From Ignavibacteria bacterium (GTDB taxonomy: Bacteria > Bacteroidota > Ignavibacteria > Ch128b), in NCBI GenBank assembly GCA_013177855.1, contig JABLYA010000001.1, forward strand, positions 1,101,231 through 1,165,230: a stretch of DNA of 64,000 nt, given 5' to 3'. The translations under genes and the position numbers were made by a program. The notes below the pieces were generated by a model. The model saw nothing but the letters and a program-made list of their open reading frames with translations. It had not been told where the DNA came from and made no database searches. The stretch's first letter is position 1, and each line of letters starts with the position of its first letter. This document shows positions 25,513 to 31,767 of the stretch, piece after piece.

Positions 25513-25599
25513 TTAGATCACTCCTTTTTCTTCAAATATAAAAAAATAAAGCAGGGAATTTTTGAGAGTAGGGATATTTAATTTTCTATAAAAAAACAA

Positions 25600-25637
25600 A
25601 AAGTTCAGAGAAATATTGCCAAATTTCTCTGAACTTT
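25600..25637 (-). terminator. intrinsic terminator after microprotein A
   Basis: A perfect 15-bp inverted repeat (AAAGTTCAGAGAAAT / ATTTCTCTGAACTTT, 8-base loop). On the minus strand it is followed by a TTGTTTTTTT tract. It ends whatever minus-strand transcript carries the microprotein at 25671-25790. Confidence 0.88.
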
Positions 25638-25670
25638 CCGGAAAATACATCCTAATTTATTTTAATTCTA

Positions 25671-25790
25671 TCACGACCAGATTTGAGAAGATATAAAAAA
25701 CAAAAAAGTTATTATTAGTACAATAACAAATAGAATTATATCCCCGGCCGAATTTCTTTGAGTAGTTGTATTTGTAGTTTTTCTTATCAT
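25671..25790 (-). CDS. 39-residue single-TM microprotein A (paralogue of microprotein B)
   Basis: A 39-residue ORF, not recognised as any known family. The polar, Thr-rich and basic N-terminus (~1-12) is followed by RNSAGD, a hydrophobic helix (~18-33) and the end FFISSQIWS. The 29 C-terminal residues share 16 identities with the ORF at 29621-29737, including N-S-x-G-D, LFFxSSxIWS and the identical C-terminal end, while the N-termini differ. Two such frames on either side of one gene are unlikely by chance, so I believe it is expressed. No good SD is seen. It lies 10 bases after a T9SS-tail remnant and before a strong terminator. Probably an inner-membrane peptide with its N-terminus in the cytoplasm (positive-inside inference). 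Confidence 0.65.
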   Translation of the reverse strand: MIRKTTNTTTQRNSAGDIILFVIVLIITFLFFISSQIWS

Positions 25791-25800
25791 TTCAAAACCA

Positions 25801-25881
25801 TTACTTTAATAAGATCATTTTCTTAATCGATGTATATTCCGGTGTTTTCAATTGATAGAAATAAACCCCGGAACTGAACAT
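25801..25881 (-). pseudogene. remnant of a T9SS C-terminal sorting domain
   Basis: Twenty-six codons, ending in a TAA at 25801, read SSGVYFYQLKTPEYTSIKK then MILLK. This is the last third of a T9SS type A sorting domain and resembles the tail of the neighbouring 1193-residue protein (PSGVYFYKIEA ... KKMILMK). In-frame sequence upstream of the Met at 25881 shows no homology and runs into the hairpin of the preceding gene. A T9SS substrate gene therefore seems to have lost its body and kept its tail, with microprotein A following directly. Confidence 0.75.
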
Positions 25882-25897
25882 AAACCAAATTATAAAG

Positions 25898-25930
25898 AAG
25901 TCAGCTTCACTTAAAGTATGAAGCTGACTT
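25898..25930 (-). terminator. hairpin after the FN3/T9SS gene
   Basis: A perfect 11-bp stem (AAGTCAGCTTC / GAAGCTGACTT) with an 11-base loop lies 14 bases after the stop of the 1193-residue gene. The following T-content on the minus strand is modest (CTTTATAATTT), so read-through into microprotein A is possible. Confidence 0.6.
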
Positions 25931-25943
25931 TCTTTGTTAATCA

Positions 25944-28900
25944 TTATTTCATCAAAATCATCTTCTTAACCGACGAGAAATCCTTAGCTTCAATCTTATA
26001 GAAATACACACCACTTGGCAAATTATTCAAATTAACAGTTTTCGAATAACTACCAGCTTTTAAAAACTCATTATTAATTATAGAAATAACTTCTTGACCT
26101 AACATATTATAAATCTTCAACGAAACTGTCGCAGCTTCTGGTAAATCAAATTTGATCATTGTAGAGGGGTTAAAGGGATTTGGATAGTTTTGATATAAAT
26201 TATACTTATTTGGAATATCAGGGTTAGAACTACTAACATCCGTAGCAGATTCAATTCCGAATCTACCAGTATTTGAATAGTATGATGATAAGCCATCGAT
26301 GTTTCTTGATCTTACTCTCCAAAAGTATTGTTTACCTGCTTCAAGCGAACTAATAGAAATATGATTTGTTGATATATTTTCAATTTTAGTCGAATTTATG
26401 AAGTAAGGATTATCTGCATATTCTAAATCATAAGTTACATTTACAGAAACTGGCACAGGTAGGTACCATGAGAACTCTGGTGAAGTAATTTTCAATAGTA
26501 CATTATGTGGACTTGCCACAACAGGTTGAGCGATTACTATCGATGAACCCCCTTGAATTGTAAAAGAAGTTACTGTTGAAAATGATGTATATGTATTATC
26601 AGCATATCGCGCTCTTACTCTCCAATAGTAAGTTGCACCATTTTCTAAACCACTTACATCATAATATTGGTGTGTAATATTGGAAACAGTCGTTGTTACA
26701 CTTGGATCAAAAACATCTGATTGACTATAAACTAATTCATAATCAACTATACCCAGTGTAGAACCAACTATATACCAACTAAATCTAATTGATGTTTGAT
26801 TGACAACTATTCCATCATATGGCCAATTGTTAACCACTGTCGTTGAACTTGGTCCGCCAACGACTGTAAAGTGACCTTGACCAAGAGGGTTAAATGTTGT
26901 AGTGCCAACTGCATACACAGCCCAATAATATGTTGCTCCATAGGTCAAATCAACATCAATTTGTTTACTAAATGTAGTAGAACTTAAACCAGTATATACT
27001 CCTCCATCAGCGTCATTGCTTCCCGGTGAATAAGTTAACCAATTGGCTGGTGGTGATGATTTTTTATATTTAACAATAAAACCAGTAATACCAAGATTAT
27101 ATCCTTCAAGATACCAGCTTAATTCGGGTCTATTTGTATATACTGTTACGCCACCTATTGGCCAATTAGCAACTGCGTATGTTGCTGTAGTTCCACCCGC
27201 TATTACAAATGATGCAGTTGAGGACCAAGCAGAGTTTGCCGGAACTGAATTAACAGATCTAACTCTCCAGTAATAAGTTTGACCAGGTGTTAACCCAGTT
27301 ATTTGAACTTGCATAATTGATGATGTGTAATCTGGATTACCATCTAACCCAACTAATGATGTTGCAAAATCGATCTCATAAGTTAATCCAGATGAATAAG
27401 GATTCAAATACCAAGTTAAAATTGGATTTGTTGTGTAAACAGTTATTCCACCTGTTGGCCAATTAGGTGTTGGAACCACTAATGTTCCAGGTCCATTCGT
27501 CACAAAAGAAGCTACCGATGACCAGTTAGAAAATGCTTGTGGATCACCATCTCCGGGGGTTCCATCAACTAATTCATCAATTACTGCTGAATATGATCTA
27601 ACCTGCCAGTAATAAGTTGTTCCTGGAGTTAATGTTGGAAGTGTTAAATATTTTTCCGATGGAAAAGAGGAAATCGCACTTGGATAATTAGTGGCATCTA
27701 GACCATCTAACATACCAGAACCATCAGTTGAAGATGATGTCGAATATCTAACCTGGTAACTTAATCCCGTACCATTTGTAGATAACACCCAATCGAGTCT
27801 CGGAGTATTTGTATATACTGATACACCACCTATCGGATAATTAGGTATAGGTACCTCTAATGTACCAGGACCGTATACCACAAAATCTTCTACTGATGAC
27901 CAAGCTGAATATTCAGAAGTAGTTGAATAATATGCTCTAACCTGCCAGTAATAAGTTTGCCCAGGGTACAGAGTATTTGGAAGCGTTAAATATTGTACAC
28001 TTGGAAATGACGCTGGATTAGTAGGATAACTTGTTGCATCCGCTCCATTTAACATTCCATCAACATCTGTTGAATTCGATGTGCTATAACGAATTTGATA
28101 AGTCAATCCACCAGTATAACCATTTACTATCCAATCGAATCTTGGATTATTAGTATATACATACGCTCCATCTTTTGGCCAATTTGGAGTTAGAGTTACC
28201 GTTGCACCACCGACAGTTACAAAATACTTATATGTCGTTGGTGAAGGATAGTGCACATACTCACCCGTTGAAGTTCTCTTAATTAACACTCTCCAGTAAT
28301 ATGTTCTACCAAGCACAACAGAAATTGTAGTAGAATAAGAACTGTTTCCACTTCCAACTACATTAGTTGAAATTGCACTACTCCAATTACTTTCTGTAGT
28401 AGGTGCTGATGTTGCAGCCATATATTGAATTTCAAATGTTAATCCATTGGCAGAATGACCCAAAGACCATTGTAAAATTACAGAAGTAGTTTGTATCTGT
28501 TGACCATTAGATGGAGAATCCTGACTTACTGTAAATCCAGGGGCTGTCGTGAAATGATATGTACTAGAAGCGAATTCATTACTATTATTATCTATGGCAG
28601 CAACCTTCCACCAGTACATCGTTCCATTAGCTAATGGAAAATTTGGGATTAACGCTGTAAACGTTTTGGAAGTATTTGTTCCCTCATTTGCCTCATAAAT
28701 CGGTGTAGTAAAATTGTTCGCGTCATCTACATATAATTTATAAGAAACAGCACCCGGAACAGTATTCCAGGACATAGTGGGTAAAACCGATACACCGGTT
28801 AATCCATTGACTGGAGCAGTTAATGTAGGAGGTGGTAAAGTCATTGTAAAGGTAAAGATGGATGAGGTAGTTGTTTCACCATTATTTGGTGCACCACCAT

Positions 28901-29525
28901 CATCAACTATTGCTTTAACTCTCCAATAATAGGTTCCAGCGTAAGAAATTGTAAAATTATGTGACAAACTACCGGGATTTATACCCGTCGTAAATGTTGA
29001 AATTATATTCGCATCAAAATTAACACCACCTTGTGTAGATAAGTCAATTGTATATTTTACATTTGACTTATTATCATTTTGTGACCATGTTACAGTGACT
29101 GTTGGAATATAGGTAAAGGAAGATCCATTACTTGGTGTAATAAGAAGAGGTGTTGCAAGTTCGGTTGTAAAACTATATGTATGCCAAGAACCATCTCCAC
29201 CAGATCCATCAACATCAGTATCTCGAACCCTCCAATAATAAGTTTTATTATAATTCAGTGATGGAAGAGATAAATTAATGGCTGTAGTATTGTATGCAGA
29301 AGCATCAACACTACTAAATAGTGGGTCATCGTCGAATTCAACATCATAAGGACCGTTGCCATTACCATCATCAAAATCAGTCCATGATACTTGAGTCAAT
29401 GTCTGCGATACATTTATTGCACCATCGTTTGGTGTAATTGGTGTCTGAGCGAATAATCCCTGGGCTAATATTATTATCAGCACAAAGAATAAAAATAAAA
29501 CGAAAGATATAGATAATCTTTTCAT
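25944..29525 (-). CDS. T9SS-exported protein of about ten fibronectin-III-like repeats
   Basis: A 1193-residue secreted protein. Residues 1-26 are a signal peptide (cleavage likely at LFAQ). Then come about ten units of ~90-110 residues, each ending in a strand of the form TYYWRVR or TYYWQVR (also YWWKV, YYWAV, YFWRV), followed by WSSxxSF: fibronectin-III-like sandwiches. Units 5-8 share a near-identical opening (WPxGGVTVYTNxP), so recent duplication is likely. The end is a T9SS sorting domain (QNYPNPFNPST, SGVYFYKI, KKMILMK). No catalytic domain is seen; a surface fibre or spacer is inferred. SD GAGGG lies before the ATG. A 31-codon ORF overlaps its start, and paralogous microproteins flank the gene. 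Confidence 0.88.
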   Translation of the reverse strand: MKRLSISFVLFLFFVLIIILAQGLFAQTPITPNDGAINVSQTLTQVSWTDFDDGNGNGPYDVEFDDDPLFSSVDASAYNTTAINLSLPSLNYNKTYYWRVRDTDVDGSGGDGSWHTYSFTTELATPLLITPSNGSSFTYIPTVTVTWSQNDNKSNVKYTIDLSTQGGVNFDANIISTFTTGINPGSLSHNFTISYAGTYYWRVKAIVDDGGAPNNGETTTSSIFTFTMTLPPPTLTAPVNGLTGVSVLPTMSWNTVPGAVSYKLYVDDANNFTTPIYEANEGTNTSKTFTALIPNFPLANGTMYWWKVAAIDNNSNEFASSTYHFTTAPGFTVSQDSPSNGQQIQTTSVILQWSLGHSANGLTFEIQYMAATSAPTTESNWSSAISTNVVGSGNSSYSTTISVVLGRTYYWRVLIKRTSTGEYVHYPSPTTYKYFVTVGGATVTLTPNWPKDGAYVYTNNPRFDWIVNGYTGGLTYQIRYSTSNSTDVDGMLNGADATSYPTNPASFPSVQYLTLPNTLYPGQTYYWQVRAYYSTTSEYSAWSSVEDFVVYGPGTLEVPIPNYPIGGVSVYTNTPRLDWVLSTNGTGLSYQVRYSTSSSTDGSGMLDGLDATNYPSAISSFPSEKYLTLPTLTPGTTYYWQVRSYSAVIDELVDGTPGDGDPQAFSNWSSVASFVTNGPGTLVVPTPNWPTGGITVYTTNPILTWYLNPYSSGLTYEIDFATSLVGLDGNPDYTSSIMQVQITGLTPGQTYYWRVRSVNSVPANSAWSSTASFVIAGGTTATYAVANWPIGGVTVYTNRPELSWYLEGYNLGITGFIVKYKKSSPPANWLTYSPGSNDADGGVYTGLSSTTFSKQIDVDLTYGATYYWAVYAVGTTTFNPLGQGHFTVVGGPSSTTVVNNWPYDGIVVNQTSIRFSWYIVGSTLGIVDYELVYSQSDVFDPSVTTTVSNITHQYYDVSGLENGATYYWRVRARYADNTYTSFSTVTSFTIQGGSSIVIAQPVVASPHNVLLKITSPEFSWYLPVPVSVNVTYDLEYADNPYFINSTKIENISTNHISISSLEAGKQYFWRVRSRNIDGLSSYYSNTGRFGIESATDVSSSNPDIPNKYNLYQNYPNPFNPSTMIKFDLPEAATVSLKIYNMLGQEVISIINNEFLKAGSYSKTVNLNNLPSGVYFYKIEAKDFSSVKKMILMK

Positions 29526-29617
29526 AATTCCCTCACAAATTTATTTGTAAAAACTTTTTGTTGTAGATTTGAGTTTACCAATCTTATTATCCCTCCGGTG
29601 TTAATAAATATTTTCAT
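29522..29617 (-). CDS. possible 31-residue leader ORF between microprotein B and the FN3/T9SS gene
   Basis: An open frame of 31 codons begins with an ATG 3 bases after the microprotein B stop. It ends in a TGA that overlaps the ATG of the large gene (ATGA) and contains that gene's SD. It matches no family I know. Tight stop-start spacing at both ends favours an operon of three frames, but the length is short enough for chance. No SD precedes it, so translation would depend on coupling. Confidence 0.3.
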   Translation of the reverse strand: MKIFINTGGIIRLVNSNLQQKVFTNKFVREL

Positions 29618-29620
29618 TTT

Positions 29621-29737
29621 TCAGCTCCATATTTTTGATGAAGCAAAAAATAGAATGGAGACAATTACAATAATTGATAGCAGTAAATAATCTCCAATTG
29701 AATTCGTGCGTTGACGAGGTTGTCTGTTTTTTGTCAT
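29621..29737 (-). CDS. 38-residue single-TM microprotein B (paralogue of microprotein A)
   Basis: A 38-residue ORF with a basic, glutamine-rich N-terminus (several Lys/Arg in the first ten residues), then TNSIGDYLLLS, one membrane helix (~17-32) and the end FFASSKIWS. It aligns without gaps to microprotein A over 29 residues with 16 identities. A fair SD (AAAGGGTG) lies before the ATG. Three bases after its stop the small leader ORF begins, then the large T9SS gene, so B heads that transcription unit. I know no family with this NSxGD-TM-SSxIWS pattern. A structural membrane peptide, a T9SS- or adhesin-linked accessory, or a type I toxin-like peptide are all conceivable. Confidence 0.68.
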   Translation of the reverse strand: MTKNRQPRQRTNSIGDYLLLSIIVIVSILFFASSKIWS

Positions 29738-29972
29738 ATTATCACCCTTTCTGTTTTGTTTGTAAAGTTAATTAGTTATTAATTAAATTTTTATAACTAA
29801 GTAACTACTCCCTTCCCGCATATGCATTATAGAACCATTAAATACATTTGGCGAAAAAATTAACAGCGATGCCTATTAATAAAGTTCCATTCAGAACATA
29901 GAGATTATTTTTTTTAGAAACAAATTATTAATGTGAGGAAATATTAATTTTTTATTAAGAAATCTCTTACAA

Positions 29973-30815
29973 TTAAATAACTTTAATAAAATCTAAAACT
30001 TCTTTGTTGAATATATCTGGCTTTTCAAATTGAATGAAGTGACCACAATTTTCAACTAAAACTAATTTGCATTTTTTAAGCCTATTACATGCTTCATTTG
30101 CCAGTTTCTCAACCAATATGGGATGCAGAGCTTTATTGGGGATTAGTGCGTCCTGTTTTCCGAAGAATAATAAAGTTGGTTGGTTAATATATTGGAGGGA
30201 ATCAGGTAAAGAATTTCTTAAAATATCTTGAAAAGCTCTTTCAACAGTTAAACAATAGAAATCAAAAGAAGGGTCGTTTCGGAGCTCAATTCTATCCGTA
30301 ATCATAAATTCTGCTTCTGGAGGGAAATTGTAAAAGTTCAACTTTACATTAAATTTAATTTGCTCATCGCTCATATTTTTTATCGAATCAAAGGTAAAAA
30401 TTTTTTCTAATCTTTTAATTTCATCTGATGTAAATTTTTCTAAACCTGCCGGAGCTGCTAAAATTAATGCCGCAATTAATTTAGGATAATTTAGGGCAGT
30501 CAGAATTGCAATCTGACCACCCATTGAATGACCGCATAAAATCACATCATTCAAATTTAAAGTCTGAACGAATTCTATTACTATATCAGAAAAAAATCTT
30601 AATGTCGAAGGATAATCTCCTTTCGATGAATTACCATAATTTGGCAGGTCAATTGCAATTATTCTTGCGTGTTGACTTAATTCATCAATATTTCTCAAAA
30701 AAGCTTTTTTATTGCTGCCAAGTCCATGAATACAGATTATTGTCTTATCGGAAATTCCTTTATCAAAATATGATATTTCAATACCCGATTGAAGTTTTAC
30801 TTTAAGCTCTTTCAT
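29973..30815 (-). CDS. alpha/beta-fold hydrolase (cytoplasmic member of a tandem pair)
   Basis: A 280-residue alpha/beta hydrolase without signal peptide. Oxyanion loop ICIHGLGSNKKAF, nucleophile elbow GHSMGGQIA, acid in GKQDALIPN and base in ENCGHFIQFEKPD are all present. It is clearly paralogous to the preceding lipoprotein hydrolase (shared DLPxYGxSxKG, GHSMGGQI, GxEKF and the final GHxIxxEKPDxFNK). It begins one base after that gene's stop, so they are co-translated. Likely an esterase or lipase-type enzyme acting in the cytoplasm on a product of, or the same substrate as, its exported twin (inference). Confidence 0.85.
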   Translation of the reverse strand: MKELKVKLQSGIEISYFDKGISDKTIICIHGLGSNKKAFLRNIDELSQHARIIAIDLPNYGNSSKGDYPSTLRFFSDIVIEFVQTLNLNDVILCGHSMGGQIAILTALNYPKLIAALILAAPAGLEKFTSDEIKRLEKIFTFDSIKNMSDEQIKFNVKLNFYNFPPEAEFMITDRIELRNDPSFDFYCLTVERAFQDILRNSLPDSLQYINQPTLLFFGKQDALIPNKALHPILVEKLANEACNRLKKCKLVLVENCGHFIQFEKPDIFNKEVLDFIKVI

Positions 30816-30816
30816 T

Positions 30817-31767
30817 TTAATTTTTTAAGAAATTAATTACCGCTTTGTTAAATTCATCTGGTTTTTCCATCATTATCATATGACCACATTTTTTTATCTC
30901 GTGCAAAATCGAATTTTGAATTTTTTGGTGACCAATCTTAAAGACATCAGCTGGAAAACCAGGATGTAAATATGGATTAGGTATAAGTCCGTCATTCTCG
31001 CCATAAATAATAAGTGTTGGAGATTTAATTAAAGCAAGTTTATCATAAGTTGGTTCGTCAATCATTCCTGCAACGGAACGAGTAACCGCTTGAGCGAATA
31101 AATCAAAATCTTTTGCTTTTGCCATTCTAACTCTTTCTTCGACCATCCATTCGAGTTCCGAACGCCAGTTGTAGAAATTATTGGAAAGATTTCTTCTCAC
31201 ACCTTCTTCGTTTGTGCTTTTTACACTTCGAATTGTTACTACACTTTTTAACCATTCACCTTCTCCACGATTGAATTTTTCAATTCCAGCAGTTGAAGCA
31301 AGAACAAGTTTATTAACTCTTTCCGGATATAAAATGGAGAACCAAATTCCAATCTGCCCACCCATTGAATGACCAATAAAGTTTACTTTCTCAATTTGAA
31401 GTTCATCGAGTAATTGTTTTAAAGTATTTGCGAAAAATTTCATTTTGTAAGAGTAATTTCCTTTATCCGATTTACCATAACCGGGCAGATCAACTGCGAT
31501 CACTCTAAAATGTTTAGCAAGTTCTGGAATGTTGTATCTCCAGAAACCCAGATTGCTTGCAAGTCCATGAACCAATAAAATAACTTCACCTTTGCCTTCA
31601 TCAATATAAGCTAATTTGGGTGAAGTGTGAGAATATCTTACATCAAAGCCGTAGTTAATCTCAGAAAATTCAAGCGGAGGCATATTAGTATAAAGAAAAC
31701 CTGATGAACAGGCGGAAAAAATCAAAATCATCAAGATTGCCAATGAGTGGAAAATCATTTTTTTCAT
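30817..31767 (-). CDS. alpha/beta-fold hydrolase lipoprotein
   Basis: A 316-residue protein with a lipoprotein signal (hydrophobic core, lipobox FSAC, Cys20), so it is membrane-anchored outside the cytoplasm. The hydrolase core follows: LLVHGLASNLGFW, GHSMGGQIG, GENDGLIPNPYL and CGHMIMMEKPD provide oxyanion loop, Ser, Asp and His. The SD is strong (AAGGAGGT). It lies 9 bases after the outer-membrane beta-barrel gene and 1 base before its soluble paralogue, suggesting a three-gene unit for uptake and hydrolysis of an ester or lipid. Confidence 0.86.
   Translation of the reverse strand: MKKMIFHSLAILMILIFSACSSGFLYTNMPPLEFSEINYGFDVRYSHTSPKLAYIDEGKGEVILLVHGLASNLGFWRYNIPELAKHFRVIAVDLPGYGKSDKGNYSYKMKFFANTLKQLLDELQIEKVNFIGHSMGGQIGIWFSILYPERVNKLVLASTAGIEKFNRGEGEWLKSVVTIRSVKSTNEEGVRRNLSNNFYNWRSELEWMVEERVRMAKAKDFDLFAQAVTRSVAGMIDEPTYDKLALIKSPTLIIYGENDGLIPNPYLHPGFPADVFKIGHQKIQNSILHEIKKCGHMIMMEKPDEFNKAVINFLKN

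Follow-up and report, generated by a model that had tools for sequence, protein, structure and literature searches.

Two paralogous microproteins flank interchangeable T9SS surface-protein genes in one family of Ignavibacteria and may assist their export

According to the general view, a Sec signal peptide and a C-terminal sorting domain are all that T9SS cargo requires, and the shuttles are located in the outer membrane. In the window, by which we mean the whole 64-kb stretch of DNA analyzed here (genome G000, an Ignavibacteria bacterium), a gene for such a cargo protein of 1,193 residues is flanked on the same strand by two unlisted open reading frames (ORFs) of 38 and 39 codons, designated microproteins A and B. 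This arrangement raises the question of whether such short frames are genes at all and, if they are, what they might do for the protein encoded between them. The positions assigned to both ORFs in the original prediction were confirmed (Table 1).

Table 1. Features of the locus, in window coordinates
Feature	Coordinates	Strand	Description
Conserved promoter/leader box	29787..29862	-	About 76 nt, upstream of A; TTTTTCnCCAAA...TATAAT...ATGCGGGAAGGGAGTAGTTA
Sigma-70-like promoter	29826..29854	-	TCGCCA-17-TATAAT, inside the leader box; consensus match, weight from conservation
Microprotein A	29621..29737	-	MTKNRQPRQRTNSIGDYLLLSIIVIVSILFFASSKIWS; 38 aa, single TM helix, conserved C-terminus LFFASSKIWS; orthologues in G001, G003, G004
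T9SS type A cargo	25944..29525	-	1,193 aa; FN3-type repeats (fn3 and fn3-like domains)
Signal peptide	29448..29525	-	MKRLSISFVLFLFFVLIIILAQGLFAQ; start of the 1,193-aa cargo
Por_Secre_tail / TIGR04183 T9SS sorting domain	25956..26186	-	Residues 1114-1190 of the 1,193-aa cargo
Terminator-like hairpin	25898..25930	-	After the T9SS gene; intrinsic-terminator-like
T9SS remnant	25801..25884	-	3' end (27 codons and stop) of a 261- to 265-aa T9SS gene that is otherwise deleted
Microprotein B	25671..25790	-	MIRKTTNTTTQRNSAGDIILFVIVLIITFLFFISSQIWS; 39 aa, paralogue of A, C-terminus LFFISSQIWS; orthologues in G001, G002, G003
Intrinsic terminator	25597..25640	-	After B; similar one after B in G001 and G002

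The likeness of A and B goes far beyond chance. They agree at 15 of the last 29 positions, one fewer than first counted. Among all 46,056 pairs formed by the 304 short ORFs (29 to 60 aa) in the window, the runner-up pair had 10 matches, and shuffling B 20,000 times gave at most 11 matches to A. When its own genome was searched, A alone retrieved B at E = 2e-5, and this single-query search yielded no credible third copy. Hydropathy and AlphaFold2 both gave the expected membrane helix, a single one covering residues 13 to 37 with a mid-helix pLDDT of about 96. The N-termini carry a net charge of +4 (A) and +3 (B), and the best 19-residue hydropathy is 2.46 for A and 2.91 for B. From the basic N-terminus, the one helix, and the short polar C-terminus, both proteins are predicted to sit in the inner membrane with the N-terminus inside and the C-terminus outside. 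Both combine the traits of small bitopic subunits: a length below about 50 aa, one transmembrane helix, and purifying selection at the protein level.

The two paralogues are strongly conserved at the extreme C-terminus, as might be expected if A and B were processed to release a secreted signal peptide from that end, in the style of short hydrophobic peptides. We find this highly improbable: the GD where the helix begins is no less conserved than the end, the block contains no peptide receptor or exporter, and the end is not fixed, since B of G003 finishes in SSQLFV. A kinship with ExbD/TolR-like helices, suggested by an Asp at the helix start and paired Ser at the end, was also considered and dropped, there being no Pfam or PDB match.

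To place A and B among relatives, we used each as a single-sequence query against 149 genomes. Matches had E values of 1e-6 to 1e-18 and came from the same taxonomic family only, in which five of six genomes contain the A/B family. There are four homologues of A (G000, G001, G003, and G004) and four of B (G000, G001, G002, and G003, the last read from a contig end), for a total of eight sequences; most of the five genomes that contain them are fragmented assemblies. In the sixth genome, G005, itself a fragmented assembly, we found no A, no B, and no copy of the signal peptide of the A-linked cargo. A profile built from these eight sequences, whose own high scores are not independent evidence, had no match at E < 9e-4 beyond the A/B loci in 391 genomes of the class and 296 of the phylum. 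The weak matches that we inspected (about E 1e-3 and above) were attributed to chance, as they lay inside larger frames, ran across stop codons, or fell in unrelated ORFs; the one in G121 reads on into a CcoQ-like protein, and those in G136 and G029 overlap SecD-like frames. The other Bacteroidota T9SS genomes searched were without the family. Neither protein had a credible match in Pfam, NCBIfam, PHROG, or PDB, which agrees with the initial view that the pattern belongs to no known family, and the database and genome searches returned no homologue of known function.

Mismatches among homologues fall mainly at third codon positions. Between the A genes of G000 and G004, for example, there are 7, 2, and 22 mismatches at positions 1, 2, and 3. 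Where dS was estimable, dN/dS ranged from 0.08 to 0.20; two A pairs were saturated at synonymous sites, and the ratio is not estimable for them. Given homologues in five of six family genomes, divergence at third codon positions, and low dN/dS, we conclude from sequence comparison that A and B are genuine genes; across all genomes searched, they occur in a single taxonomic family. Both are presumably translated. The A proteins of three genera are closer to each other than to the B of their own genome, with B of G003 intermediate. A and B are two old paralogues. The original prediction had staked its case on homologues beside T9SS genes in relatives and on purifying selection among orthologues; the rate test bore out the second, and the first was found, but in one taxonomic family only.

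Length, hydrophobicity, and a single transmembrane helix would also suit type I toxin-like or lysis peptides, an option that had been raised for this pair at the outset. However, A and B matched no phage or plasmid record and had no credible PHROG match. Their protein sequence is under selection across genera, and the paralogue pair has been retained along with T9SS genes. The promoter lies on the sense strand, purine-rich sequences precede the starts, the genes are placed inside a T9SS unit, and promoter-like sites in the region are no commoner than in shuffled sequence. A toxin or lysis function is thus very unlikely in our estimation. In a type I system, an antisense or divergent RNA gene would block translation; for this feature, the observations are the background number of promoter-like sites and the lack of an Rfam match.

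In every genome where they were found (G000 to G004), A and B adjoin T9SS genes, and SprA/Sov is encoded in all six family genomes, so that there is a T9SS to serve. In G000, the order is A, FN3 cargo, remnant, and B. The T9SS tail reported before B is real: it is 74% identical over 27 aa to the C-terminus of a 261-aa T9SS protein of G001, and the 261- to 265-aa gene is intact beside B in the sister species G001 and G002. The gap from stop codon to B is 10 nt for the remnant and 8 and 9 nt in these relatives. In G001, A is followed by a 1,194-aa LamG-like cargo, its 731-aa partial paralogue, the 261-aa cargo, and B, with successive gaps of 58, 75, 56, and 8 nt. The G002 assembly contains the end of a 731 homologue, the 265-aa cargo, and B, the other end being unassembled. 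G003 has A, an orthologous FN3 cargo (1,262 aa; 53% identical over 1,204 columns), and B. The signal peptide MKRLSISFVLFLFFVLIIILAQGLFAQ is common to the A-linked cargo of G000, G001 (731 aa), and G003, and this type was found nowhere else in the family at E < 1e-8; in G004, the first codons of a similar T9SS-type signal peptide follow A at the contig end. A supposed decayed T9SS tail before B in G003 was rejected (27% over 22 residues, E = 0.6).

Together, A and B enclose one to three T9SS genes in G000, G001, and G003. The number and architecture of these cargo genes vary (FN3 repeats versus LamG-like and other domains), whereas A and B are constant. By these comparisons, evolution has kept the protein sequence of A and B while the intervening surface-protein genes were swapped. 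The idea of a cassette made of a microprotein plus a T9SS protein survives in part: the linkage occurs in every genome with the family, but there is not one microprotein per T9SS gene, and A and B instead flank a variable block.

The three cargo genes of G001 stand in tandem (L062:6985-13682). By eye, repeats in the 1,194- and 731-aa proteins (DHDGDVDLDDVSALA...DHNGDGRVGNLD) are dockerin-like, whereas the 261-aa protein appears cohesin-like, so that a cellulosome-like pairing is conceivable; Pfam reported neither dockerin nor cohesin in this cargo at E 0.01.

Upstream of A, the promoter in the leader box is directly followed by a GCGGGAAGGGAGTAGTT stretch. A sequence model of the box matched at E of about 1e-21 in the four genomes with A. 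There was one other strong match (E = 5e-7), a second, weaker copy in G003 (L171:3285-3355, G003:C54) some hundreds of bases before a T9SS gene with FG-GAP repeats and a sorting domain, whose signal-peptide region looks disrupted. Because the leader recurs before a second T9SS gene, the box appears to belong to T9SS expression, with A inside that transcription unit, and the T9SS surface-protein genes that have it may form a small regulon. A leader match in G005 was discarded, as it lies within the coding end of an unrelated gene. Against Rfam, the leader had no match at the gathering threshold, and those at the E-value threshold were implausible chance matches; a riboswitch reading, to which AAGGGAGTAGTT might point through its resemblance to the yybP-ykoY core, was given up. 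A tiny leaderless ORF in the leader (MREG.S) reads alike over only a short stretch, and its frames end at different places. In G003, an orphan signal-peptide ORF (MKRLGTSFLLFSIFLILILLAQQLVAMYPPL; L064:4988-5074, minus strand) lies between leader and A; it is a weaker copy of the A-linked signal peptide and apparently a leftover of a lost T9SS gene.

SecM and TnaC are short leader or arrest peptides that precede an exported or regulated gene, and A is likewise a short ORF ahead of an exported-protein gene. A might then be a cis-acting leader peptide that, by arrest or attenuation, links T9SS gene expression to insertion into the membrane, with its paralogue B doing the same for the gene downstream. 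Its position between the conserved promoter/leader and the cargo in G000, G001, and G004 fits this idea, as does the strong conservation of the extreme C-terminus. Unlike SecM and TnaC, however, A is matched by a paralogue at the opposite end of the unit, and its codons vary freely, synonymous sites having diverged without restraint. The spacers between A and cargo (58 to 342 nt) have no sequence in common, and no conserved RNA structure or spacer was found. Moreover, A but not B is upstream of a cargo gene; B is followed by a terminator, and the Yip1-like gene after it has no B upstream in G004. We regard regulation in cis as unlikely. The absence of B beside the Yip1-like gene of G004 also led us to reject B as a partner of that gene. 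In G004, a tRNA-Asn-like sequence recognized by eye lies directly upstream of the Yip1-like gene (L108:1-379; also L115), where the other genus has B.

Purine-rich runs resembling ribosome-binding sites precede the starts of A, and a strong terminator lies 3' of B in each of the genus's three species (G000, G001, and G002). In G000, cotranscription of B with the FN3 cargo is doubtful because of the terminator-like hairpin between them; G001 also has such a hairpin within the unit, between the 731- and 261-aa genes. With these internal hairpins, expression of B may require that transcription reads through them or starts at a separate promoter.

The genes upstream of A differ across three genera. 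An aminotransferase gene precedes A in G003 and a gene for a YchF-like GTPase does so in G004; their G000 counterparts lie about 34 and 234 kb into contig 2, away from the block. Since these genes are on a different contig in G000, the block appears to occupy at least three chromosomal contexts and to have moved as one, a rearrangement deduced from assemblies in which, for G002, G003, and G004, the contig stops near the block. Joint movement of neighbors can reflect hitch-hiking instead of function. In the window, two tandem, similar alpha/beta hydrolase genes lie upstream of A (29973-31767, minus strand), where G001 has just one.

By linkage and selection, A and B are real genes that are probably tied to export of the surface proteins that they bracket. 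With the predicted topology added, our leading, still tentative reading, in line with the export accessory suggested at the outset, is that they are small accessory subunits that act while the linked cargo is at the inner-membrane stage of its export. As small bitopic inner-membrane proteins, A and B would keep the basic N-terminus inside and expose the SS[KQ]IWS tail to the periplasm. A would head and B would end a transcription unit whose middle is made up of interchangeable T9SS surface-protein genes, and from these positions we propose that they are produced together with the cargo. Helix and tail would bind the Sec exit, a membrane chaperone, or the T9SS motor during passage of large repeat proteins. 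Cotranscription, a binding partner, and a role in export are what we infer from this arrangement.

Known small subunits offer a partial parallel. Like AcrZ, CydX, and KdpF, A and B have fewer than 50 residues and one helix and are kept with or near what they would serve, as their genes stay beside the proposed client genes. CydX is 37 aa long (PMC4325964), and AcrZ binds the membrane part of AcrB (PMC7267776). A and B are not related to these proteins in sequence, and they differ in that two paralogues flank secreted-protein genes rather than enzyme or pump genes, with a partner that is only proposed. PorP/SprF shuttle genes, which encode dedicated partners, are commonly found directly downstream of T9SS type B cargo genes (PMC12618676), an arrangement that A and B recall. 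Those shuttles, however, are outer-membrane beta-barrels for type B sorting domains, whereas A and B are single helices of 38 and 39 aa beside type A cargo (TIGR04183); with one helix and no family match, they do not qualify as PorV/PorP-family beta-barrels. GldL and GldM (PorL and PorM) have inner-membrane helices at the base of the T9SS, and the one N-terminal in-to-out helix of GldM (PMC10202324) has the topology predicted for A and B. Unlike GldL and GldM, A and B have no detectable Pfam or PDB-chain match, and the motor is only a possible place of action.

The linkage of A and B to T9SS genes would also fit if they were membrane proteins of envelope stress or membrane physiology during abundant surface-protein synthesis, standing outside the export path, for instance as ligands of a protease or sensor that report export load. 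Small stress-related membrane proteins are common, YohP being an example (PMC12719787). Linkage, however, is to cargo only; none of the genes that move with the block encodes a regulator, protease, or sensor. We consider a stress role possible but rather doubtful. Returning to accessory subunits in export, a bolder proposal is that, in one Ignavibacteria family, A and B are dedicated inner-membrane accessories, coproduced with cargo, without which large T9SS surface proteins would not be exported or displayed efficiently. This, too, we advance with considerable reserve.

In a partial library of literature on T9SS with small proteins or on Ignavibacteria, no title or abstract describes such a peptide. 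We know of no precedent for an inner-membrane layer of microproteins in the handling of T9SS cargo. A and B present a clean case of genes overlooked because of their small size, and the leader common to four genomes suggests that some surface proteins form a small regulon. If our reading is true, small inner-membrane proteins that flank a changing set of T9SS cargo would point to an unrecognized step before the outer membrane.
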